42,755 nucleotides of DNA from Alphaproteobacteria bacterium RIFCSPHIGHO2_02_FULL_46_13 (GTDB lineage: Bacteria > Pseudomonadota > Alphaproteobacteria > Micavibrionales > Micavibrionaceae), in the NCBI GenBank assembly GCA_001767915.1, contig MEMI01000047.1, positions 53,455 through 96,209 on the forward strand, in the 5' to 3' direction. Under the pieces are notes generated by a model, which had not been told where the DNA came from, ran no database searches, and worked only from the letters and a program-made list of their open reading frames with translations. How positions within the stretch are numbered: the first letter of the stretch is position 1; each line of letters begins with the position of its first letter. Both the position numbers and the translations under genes were made by a program. Of the stretch, positions 7,886 through 11,045 are shown piece after piece.

Positions 7886-9274
7886 TTATTGCTTTCCGGC
7901 TTTGATCAAAGATAGACCGTGCAACAGGTCAAGGGCGCGTGCCAATTGATAATCCTGTTTCGCCTGATCTTTCTCTGCGGCATCTTTATCTTTTGGTGCA
8001 TCTTTTCCGTCTTTGCTGACATTTTCAACAACTGCCGGTGTTGGGACAGGGGTTGATGCTTTTGGTGTGTCAGGGTTGCTGATTGCACCTTTCAGGTCGG
8101 CTTCACCAATACGCATTTCATCCAGTTTTTCAATTTTGGCTGGTTCAACCAGAATGTCCGGCTCAATTCCTTTGGCCTGAATTGAGCGACCAGACGGTGT
8201 GAAGTAACGCGCGGTTGTTAAACGCATCGCGCCATCACCCGGTGTCGGGATTACTGTTTGCACAGAGCCTTTACCGAATGATTTTGTACCCATCAGGACA
8301 GCACGGTGATGGTCTTGCAACGCACCCGATACAATTTCGGATGCAGACGCAGAGCCACCGTTAATCAGAACAACAACAGGAAGCCCATCCGCCAGATCAC
8401 CAGGGAGGGCGTTGTCGCGTTTAATCGCTTCGTCATTGCGTCCGCGTGTGGAGACAATTTCGCCTTTATCAAGGAAAGCATCGGACACGGCAATCGCTTG
8501 GTCAAGCAGACCACCCGGATTGTTGCGCAGGTCAAGAACATAACCCACCAATTTGCCGTTGGTATCTTTTTTGATTTTATCAAAGGCTTCTTTTACACCG
8601 TCATATGTGTTCTGGCTAAATGTAGTGATACGGATATAACCGACATCGCCGCCTTCTACATGGTAGCGCACAGATTTGATTTTAATGGTTTCGCGTTTAA
8701 TGTTGATGAACATCGGCTCACTCACACCTTCGCGGCGGACGGTGAGTTCAATAGATGTGCCGACTTTTCCACGCATTTTATCAACTGCTTCGGCCAAGGT
8801 CATGCCGATGATTGGTTTTTTGTCTAGATGAGTAATAAAATCACCTGCTTGTATACCAGCTTTAAATGCTGGCGTATCATCTATCGGGGACACAACTTTC
8901 ACAAGACCATCTTGCATAGTAACTTCGATCCCCAATCCTCCAAATTCGCCCTTGGTTTGGATTTTCATGTCGTCGAAATCTTTAGCGGTCATGTAATCGG
9001 AATGGGGGTCAAGGTTGGTGAGCATTCCTTTGATCGCGTATTCAATCAATTTTTCATCGGAAATTTTATCAACGTATTTTTCACGAACCGTTTCAAAAAC
9101 TCCACCGAATAGGGAGAGTTGTTTGTAGGTTTCTTCGTTCATCTGTTCTTGGGTTAAAGCTTTCTCAGGCGCAGCCGCAGGAGCATCGGCTTTTTGATCT
9201 TCGGCAACAGCAATATTCGAGAAAGAGAAAAGGGCGATCAGCGCAGTTGATAGTAACAGAGAGCGGTTCAACAT
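7886..9274 (-). CDS. ctpA: Carboxyl-terminal processing protease (S41 family, PDZ domain)
   Basis: Signal peptide, PDZ (GGLGIEVTMQDGLVKVVSPIDDTPAFKAGIQAGDFI), catalytic region INGGSASASEIVSGALQDHHRAVLMGTKSFGKGSVQT. Confidence 0.96.
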   Translation of the reverse strand: MLNRSLLLSTALIALFSFSNIAVAEDQKADAPAAAPEKALTQEQMNEETYKQLSLFGGVFETVREKYVDKISDEKLIEYAIKGMLTNLDPHSDYMTAKDFDDMKIQTKGEFGGLGIEVTMQDGLVKVVSPIDDTPAFKAGIQAGDFITHLDKKPIIGMTLAEAVDKMRGKVGTSIELTVRREGVSEPMFINIKRETIKIKSVRYHVEGGDVGYIRITTFSQNTYDGVKEAFDKIKKDTNGKLVGYVLDLRNNPGGLLDQAIAVSDAFLDKGEIVSTRGRNDEAIKRDNALPGDLADGLPVVVLINGGSASASEIVSGALQDHHRAVLMGTKSFGKGSVQTVIPTPGDGAMRLTTARYFTPSGRSIQAKGIEPDILVEPAKIEKLDEMRIGEADLKGAISNPDTPKASTPVPTPAVVENVSKDGKDAPKDKDAAEKDQAKQDYQLARALDLLHGLSLIKAGKQ

Positions 9275-9295: not shown

Positions 9296-10594
9296 TTAAT
9301 CGAGTTTCGAAAATTTCTTGGACGGGTTCACAGGGTCCCCTTGGTATCTGAGTTCGTAATAGAGGCGGCCAGAAGATGAGGGAAGTGTACCAATCGGCTC
9401 ACCCGCTTCAACGCGCTGCCCCACGAATGTATCAACTTTCCCTAAACCTGCAACTAGGCTATGAAATTTATTTTTATGTTCGATGAGAGCGATTTTACCA
9501 TAGTTACGGAATGTTCCCGCATAACGGACGATACCACCGAGCGGAGCAACAACAACCGACCCTTCGCGGGCAGAAAAGATAATACCTTGGCTGGTCGCGC
9601 CGATTTCATCGGCTTCGCCATAGCGGGTTTTAATAATACCGGAAACGGGTAGGCGACCTGTGCCAAGAGCAGGGCCGGTGTCCGATGATTTATCACGCTT
9701 TGAACTATTACCTGTCCGCGCATCAATTTCACGGTTTTTCTTTTCAAGTTTTTTGATAAGGTCACGGAAATCAGTCGCTTCCTTGGTCAGGTTGGCAATT
9801 TCTTGCTGTTTGGCAGCAACTTTTTTCTTTGTGGTTTCCAACGCTTTTGAGCGATCCGCCACCAATTTATCCATTTTATCTTTGTTGGATTTTAATGTGG
9901 CGGTGGCTTTTTCAACTTCGGCTTTTTGGTTATTCAGGTCGGCTTCTACTTCGGACAAGGTTTGCAAATCGGTTTTTAATTGATTGGCGCGTTTATTGAT
10001 CTCGGGCAGAATTGATCCCATGACGGTTGCGGCTTGCGCGGTCTCTAACGGTGCATCGGGGCGGGCGATTAAAGTTTCGGGCGGCAGACGGCGAATACGT
10101 TCCAATGCCAGAATTAAATTGGCGAGGGATGCGCGTTTTGCTTTTAATGTGTCTTCCAGTTCCTGTTTTTGTTTTTGCAGATCGGCAATTTTATTTTCAA
10201 TGTCTTGCAATGTCCGTTCATTTTTCTGAACGGATTTTGTGGTGTCGATCAGGTTGCTTTTCAAACCCTTCATATCTTTTTCGAGTTTGTCGGCCGCGGC
10301 TTTTAATTCTTCCTGATGCGCTTTCTCAGCCTCGACCTTACTCTCGATTTCCTTGAGTTTCTCTTGCTTTGGCGCGATCTTTTCGGCGGCAAGGGCGGGA
10401 TTGGATAGGGTAAGAAAGGCGGACACTAGCAACACTGTCATCCCCGCGAAGGCGGGGATCCGGAATGATCGTTGCAAAATATTTCTTATTTTTTCCTGAA
10501 AAACATCGCCCACCGGATCCCCGCCTTCGCGGGGATGACAGATAAATAAACAGATAAATAAATTTTTCAATTCTGTTGCCATGCTATCCCTCAC
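9296..10594 (-). CDS. EnvC-like murein hydrolase activator, coiled coil plus M23-type (LytM) domain
   Basis: Long coiled coil followed by IKTRYGEADEIGATSQGIIFSAREGSVVVAPLGGIVRYAGTFRNYGKIALIEHKNKFHSLVAGLGKVDTFVGQRVEAGEPIGTL. The N-terminal region carries an inserted palindromic element (see findings). Confidence 0.9.
   Translation of the reverse strand: MRDSMATELKNLFICLFICHPREGGDPVGDVFQEKIRNILQRSFRIPAFAGMTVLLVSAFLTLSNPALAAEKIAPKQEKLKEIESKVEAEKAHQEELKAAADKLEKDMKGLKSNLIDTTKSVQKNERTLQDIENKIADLQKQKQELEDTLKAKRASLANLILALERIRRLPPETLIARPDAPLETAQAATVMGSILPEINKRANQLKTDLQTLSEVEADLNNQKAEVEKATATLKSNKDKMDKLVADRSKALETTKKKVAAKQQEIANLTKEATDFRDLIKKLEKKNREIDARTGNSSKRDKSSDTGPALGTGRLPVSGIIKTRYGEADEIGATSQGIIFSAREGSVVVAPLGGIVRYAGTFRNYGKIALIEHKNKFHSLVAGLGKVDTFVGQRVEAGEPIGTLPSSSGRLYYELRYQGDPVNPSKKFSKLD
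10435..10541. repeat. REP/BIME-like palindromic element, 107 bp, inside the EnvC-like CDS
   Basis: Perfect 29-bp inverted arms: CTGTCATCCCCGCGAAGGCGGGGATCCGG (10435-10463) and CCGGATCCCCGCCTTCGCGGGGATGACAG (10513-10541). Each arm is itself a hairpin (CCCCGC-GAAG-GCGGGG). Confidence 0.95.
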
Positions 10595-11045
10595 GGTGAT
10601 ACGGATGTCCCGCGATGATTTGTTGGGCGCGGTAAATTTGCTCCAGCAACATTACGCGCACCATCACATGCGGCCATGTTTGTTGCCCGAAACTGAGCAT
10701 CATATTGGCTTTGTTCCTGATCTCGTCAGTAAAGCCTTCTGCCCCACCAATCAGAAAGGTGATTTTGTCTGCGCCCGTGCTTTGAATTTTCTGGATGGTG
10801 TGCGCGAAATCCAGACTGCGTAATCCATCCCCGCGTTCGTCCATGACAATAATAAATGAATCTTCATCCAGTTTTTCAAGGATCAGGCGTTGCTCATGCG
10901 CTTGTTGGGCTTTGGCATCGGTGAATTTACTTTCAACCTCAATAACATTTAACGCCCATTTGGTACGGGTCACATAGTCTGCGATCAGGTCATACCATGA
11001 CCCTTTTTTGACTTTTCCAACAACGATGAGATCAATTTTAAACAT
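10584..11045 (-). CDS. rlmH: 23S rRNA (pseudouridine1915-N3)-methyltransferase RlmH
   Basis: FIIVMDERGDGLRSLDFA, ITFLIGGAEGFTDEIRNKANMMLSFGQQTWPHVMVRVMLLEQIYRAQQIIAGHPYHREG. Confidence 0.97.
   Translation of the reverse strand: MFKIDLIVVGKVKKGSWYDLIADYVTRTKWALNVIEVESKFTDAKAQQAHEQRLILEKLDEDSFIIVMDERGDGLRSLDFAHTIQKIQSTGADKITFLIGGAEGFTDEIRNKANMMLSFGQQTWPHVMVRVMLLEQIYRAQQIIAGHPYHREG

Follow-up and report, generated by a model that had tools for sequence, protein, structure and literature searches.

An EnvC-like gene of a Micavibrio-like alphaproteobacterium carries, inside its predicted signal peptide, a head-to-head dimer of CGTC-1-type REP sequences, a short non-autonomous palindrome that is mobile by its distribution. 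The dimer adds 35 codons and leaves the gene unbroken, and the nine congeneric orthologs with readable N-termini lack it. We consider it likely that this CGTC-1 REP dimer inserted into the core of the envC signal peptide, is read through in frame in a protein that is still exported, and is tolerated without serving a function.

The gene occupies positions 9296..10582 on the minus strand of the window, by which we mean the whole 42.8-kb stretch of DNA that was analysed, and encodes 428 amino acids with a Peptidase_M23 match (E 2.9e-17). We term it EnvC-like only, because its best match in the NCBIfam library, murein hydrolase activator EnvC, scored 57.5 bits against a cut-off of 270, and its features are a coiled coil and an M23 domain. 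It lies in the gene order rlmH-envC-S41 peptidase, between rlmH upstream (10584..11045, minus strand; SPOUT_MTase, E 9.9e-46) and the gene for an S41 C-terminal processing peptidase downstream (7886..9274, minus strand; profile matches). As the initial annotation had stated, the palindrome has perfect arms around a 49-bp centre: two inverted copies of 29 nt (10435-10463 and 10513-10541), 100% complementary and 49 nt apart; the window has no other inverted pair of 20 nt or longer. With the TGTC tag taken as boundary, the outermost C/G of either arm is flank, outside the REP proper, and the element runs from 10436 to 10540, that is, 105 bp or exactly 35 codons on the minus strand. That strand reads MATELKNLFICLFI-CHPREGGDPVGDVFQEKIRNILQRSFRIPAFAGMT-VLLVSAFLTLSNPALAAEK across it, the middle part being element-coded; both the open frame and the split of the hydrophobic leader by about 35 residues were therefore correctly described.

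In the coding sense, the first REP unit (10513..10540, minus strand) is made up of the tag TGTC, a stem ATCCCCGC/GCGGGGAT closed by the loop GAAG, and the tail CCG, and codes HPREGGD. The 49-bp spacer (10464..10512) and the second, inverted unit (10436..10463) follow on the same strand, the latter coding IPAFAGMT and containing an ATG (Met48) at 10439-10441. The 16-nt core gave two exact matches and one with three mismatches where 0.35 would be expected, and the element as RNA has a predicted folding energy of -68.4 kcal/mol, compared with -32.5 (sd 3.9) for shuffled sequences (z = -9.3). A search for the spacer, made to trace a source copy, found no second occurrence in this genome and none in the 99 genomes of the family. 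At one edge there is a 12-bp tandem repeat (10538..10562, no strand; 2.1 copies, 100% match) whose unit includes the final 3 bp of the element. The duplication had been taken as a possible insertion scar; it is real but is not a target-site duplication, because it is one-sided and copies element bases, from which we infer an origin during or after the insertion.

The assignment to the CGTC-1 class follows the features listed by Di Nocera, De Gregorio and Rocco (2013, PMC3733652), namely a terminal unpaired CGTC tag with TGTC (a frequent variant) and CCTC allowed, an 8-bp stem with leading A-T pairs, a 4-nt loop and a short unpaired tail with the consensus CCA. Both units here have the TGTC tag, the stem and loop agree, and the tail is CCG, of the CC-N form, with CCA in the other copies of the genome. 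Head-to-head dimers with spacers of 20-100 bp predominate in the class, and the envC copy is such a dimer, with tags outside; the other copies in the genome are mostly single units. The same REP occurs at 7-9 further sites in the 2.13-Mb genome (8-10 units in all, none with a control pattern), so it is not a single-occurrence sequence. It is also present in 10 of 11 genus genomes, where a reversed control pattern gave no match, and in half of those sampled from the family (49 of 99; Micavibrio-like Alphaproteobacteria), with stems that vary yet stay paired, e.g. ATTCCGGC/GCCGGAAT. The published class is found in Alphaproteobacteria, with Micavibrio aeruginosavorus named as a host, includes known intragenic copies and has no dedicated transposase (PMC3733652). 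In agreement with this, a search for a Y1_Tnp transposase partner found none in the organism's own genome, which is 97% complete; among 11 congeneric genomes just two carry the gene, and the flanks examined in these held no REP.

The initial annotation had thus rightly called this a REP/BIME-type element inserted in frame and likened it to the Rickettsia palindromic elements, one of which, RPE-6, is itself counted among CGTC-1 REPs (PMC3733652). RPE-4, RPE-6 and RPE-1 are likewise in-frame palindromes within genes, although RPE-1 is longer and of other sequence (PMC3733652), and here the host is Micavibrio-like and the copies in the genome are few. With the REPINs and BIMEs mobilised by RAYT the element shares its organisation as paired inverted REPs forming a non-autonomous mobile unit, but those carry GTAG tags and go with a RAYT gene, whereas here the tag is TGTC and Y1_Tnp is absent. 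The remaining copies in the genome appear intergenic by inspection of reading frames, their flanking genes being unannotated, which leaves envC as the single clear intragenic copy. As a side observation, the dimer matches the Rfam model of the Wolbachia sRNA WsnRNA46 below threshold (45.3 bits; cut-off 65.3), and WsnRNA46 may itself be a REP dimer.

Comparison with relatives indicates an insertion. An envC ortholog was found in all 10 congeneric genomes, and the element is in none of the nine with readable N-termini, the match to the tenth (G007) beginning only at residue 68. The closest orthologs, in G005 (87% identical) and G006 (82%), start right after rlmH and have short, ordinary signal peptides. 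Removing the element joins the flanks into MATELKNLFICLFIVLLVSAFLTLSNPALAAEK, which by hydropathy and motif is also an ordinary signal peptide. G005 reads ATC|GTG across the junction and matches the joined flanks, although the exact element-free site would be fixed by only a few bases, as the relatives' n-regions appear too diverged for base-by-base alignment. Because the joined flanks form a normal leader and G005 agrees at the junction, we conclude that the element split the predicted hydrophobic core of the envC signal peptide. The insertion reading had been open to the objection that close relatives might share the upstream region and start at the internal Met; the relatives lack the element and the upstream region is not shared. 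The h-region left after the element, VLLVSAFLTL, has a hydropathy of 2.67, inside the ortholog range of 2.0-3.65, and together with the c-region it forms VLLVSAFLTLSNPALA (10388..10435, minus strand), with cleavage predicted after ALA from hydropathy and motif only. Purifying selection acts strongly on the mature part (dN/dS 0.056 against G005), whose rate of change does not exceed that in G005. Separately, in the envC copy of G005 (L022, C10), which lies on a short contig of a 68%-complete genome, a TAA interrupts the frame a little ahead of the usual C-terminus; this could be a sequencing error or a truncation.

Which start codon serves envC bears directly on whether the element is translated. 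The original ATG (10580-10582) and its Shine-Dalgarno site GAGGG (10588-10592, in the end of rlmH) lie on the minus strand, and in this genome as in G005 and G006 the gene starts 1-5 nt past the rlmH stop, with GAGGG or GAAGG in the last rlmH codons. An unlikely alternative is a translation start at Met48, the ATG within the REP itself, in which case the element would have brought a new start and a short signal peptide, MTVLLVSAFLTLSNPALA, and what lies upstream would be an untranslated leader. That ATG is suitably placed, G005 has a Met at the aligned position, and, in the view of Di Nocera et al., N-terminal REPs often precede the true start (PMC3733652). Moreover, in a peptidase S11-like gene of G028 (L312, C50:15500-17464; D-Ala-D-Ala carboxypeptidase-like by motif) the good leader MTFQKKALFLAVLL begins at the REP ATG, so that the REP may supply the start codon. 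Against a start at Met48 in envC, the codon is wholly base-paired in the predicted fold of the transcript (probability of being unpaired 0.00), touches a GGGG at zero spacing, and would open a leader with no K or R, that is, without a basic n-region; the start region upstream is conserved in the two closest relatives; and the corresponding Met in the G055 copy of this REP frame is now Val (GTG, L190), with the leader retained. The first ATG is itself only partly open in the predicted fold (0.29-0.35).

Of the two possibilities raised initially, a tolerated long leader and a restart at the internal Met, the former is thus favored and the latter loses ground. Translation through the element is most likely, given that the start and Shine-Dalgarno site are conserved upstream, the internal ATG is buried and the mature domain is under purifying selection, although the putative n-region of 49 residues, five of them acidic, would be unusual for a Sec signal and counts against read-through. 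This placement also sets the envC copy apart from the picture drawn by Di Nocera et al., in which most N-terminal REPs are probably extragenic (PMC3733652); here the element lies inside the signal peptide and a conserved start site lies upstream.

A plausible scenario is therefore available in which a CGTC-1-type REP dimer inserted precisely into the hydrophobic core of the envC signal peptide and, thanks to a length of 105 bp and the absence of stops in this phase, added 35 codons without disrupting the gene. Ribosomes would initiate at the original ATG beside the rlmH stop and traverse the element, giving a preprotein with an n-region of about 50 residues in which the REP-coded SFRIPAFAGMT would run into the leftover h-region and the signal peptidase site, so that the mature protein would be unchanged. 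The element would have no needed function in envC and would be tolerated because, of the REP frames in reverse orientation, IPAFAGMT alone is open and also mildly hydrophobic. We give little credence to the possibility that the element instead acts as RNA, its hairpin serving in the rlmH-envC-S41 peptidase transcript as a processing or attenuation site that lowers expression of envC and the gene downstream. The hairpin is very stable, REPs are known as mRNA-processing and stability elements (PMC3733652), and the Wolbachia sRNA model matches, albeit below its cut-off; yet ribosomes would open this hairpin, situated as it is in a translated region, and it starts 42 nt into the gene, beyond the initiation site, and is not conserved in relatives. 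An assembly error or a non-functional allele is very improbable. The genome is a 56-contig assembly, but the element is far shorter than ordinary reads and sits inside a 147-kb contig, and the 428-codon frame is intact, with strong purifying selection on the mature part.

The same REP frame recurs in other signal peptides. A REP-peptide search of the family found 14 ORFs of eight gene families in which IPAFAGMT stands immediately in front of the h-region of a signal peptide that has an A-x-A or lipobox site, signal peptides being judged by hydropathy and the A-x-A motif and, beyond envC, also by eye. Besides envC (G000), these are seven families elsewhere in the order, namely SBP_bac_5 (G077, G038), CcmH (G037), FliP (G024, G038), four SBP_bac_3-type paralogs in G028 (one assigned by Pfam, two by NCBIfam below cut-off and one only from its position and likeness), a LysM-M23 lipoprotein (G039), a short lipoprotein (G082) and a family of unknown function (G060, G055) whose relatedness was judged by eye. 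In most, an ATG with a Shine-Dalgarno-like site lies upstream, and several of the 14 hold a whole dimer in frame, e.g. MKHNNNSRHPGEDRDLPASKNKIPAFAGMTLLCVLLLTGC after AGGAGG. A REP-free ortholog is available in G064, which has MRFLAAALLALLPLSAHAQE at the place of MMKSANKKKNRIPAFAGMTILLSFISFTAHAQE in G077. Between the SBP_bac_5 genes of G077 and G038, all four nucleotide differences in REP-coded residues are synonymous (chance about 0.004) and an upstream indel is 6 nt long; in this pair the palindrome appears to be being lost and the predicted peptide to be being kept.

Other occurrences in the family were of several kinds. The FliP signal peptides of two genera (L176 and L178) follow a REP-like PAFAGM stretch, by common ancestry or independent insertion, and an alanyl-tRNA synthetase frame in G028 (L271:1-2499; REP pair C1:6291-6358) has a dimer in frame mid-gene (HSRESGNLSNDEQEDPRLRGDD), another intragenic CGTC REP dimer. 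We set aside REPs in frame before tsf- and etfB-like genes, named by eye (L179, L188, L189), as intergenic with the gene's own start following, and one upstream of rbfA in a congener (L062), where the start is later; also dropped were a match in G081 without a REP (L186) and long frames over REPs in congeners that have no Pfam family (L061, L068, L072, L073).

The query for the family search was signal-peptide-shaped and hence biased by design. With the other open reverse frame, DPRLRGDD, as control in a query of the same shape over the same 142 genomes, none of 15 long frames had a REP-led signal peptide, compared with 14 of 36 for IPAFAGMT (Fisher p = 0.005, or p = 0.04 with the 14 collapsed to eight gene families), a comparison in which the ORFs are non-independent, signal peptides were called from hydropathy, motif and visual judgement, and the control query was possibly less sensitive. 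In two genomes, 139 REP units sampled without this bias point weakly in the same direction, as a trend only: 5 of 139 versus 0 of 139 (p = 0.06) in a hand-set count that adds a case missed by the filter (L181), drops a doubtful one (L293) and discards two spurious-looking control hits (L249, L315), the raw automatic counts being 5 versus 2. The simplest account of the recurrence is a filter on frames. In reverse orientation the REP offers a frame with a stop, a charged frame and a hydrophobic one, IPAFAGM, and beside an h-region the hydrophobic frame alone survives.

The envC insertion is real and of a known kind, as intragenic and N-terminal REPs have already been described. The new part, and one worth following, is the recurrence of one REP frame across signal peptides; a literature search on REPs in signal peptides and on the peptide PAFAGM found no description of it. 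We give roughly even chances to the broader proposition that REP palindromes are a recurrent source of signal peptides in Micavibrio-type bacteria, with IPAFAGMT, an open and hydrophobic frame that often follows basic residues, coming repeatedly to lie at the n/h junction of unrelated Sec and lipoprotein signals, where it would be translated and selected as protein while the palindrome decays. Set against its orthologs without the element, the envC gene is a clear case in which a mobile palindrome has put extra codons into a conserved gene and left it intact, and the case bears on the doubt in the REP literature as to whether N-terminal REPs are truly translated. It also advises caution in annotating the start sites of secreted proteins beside REPs. 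If the family-wide pattern is true, REPs would be repeated raw material for export signals, beyond being merely tolerated in genes.
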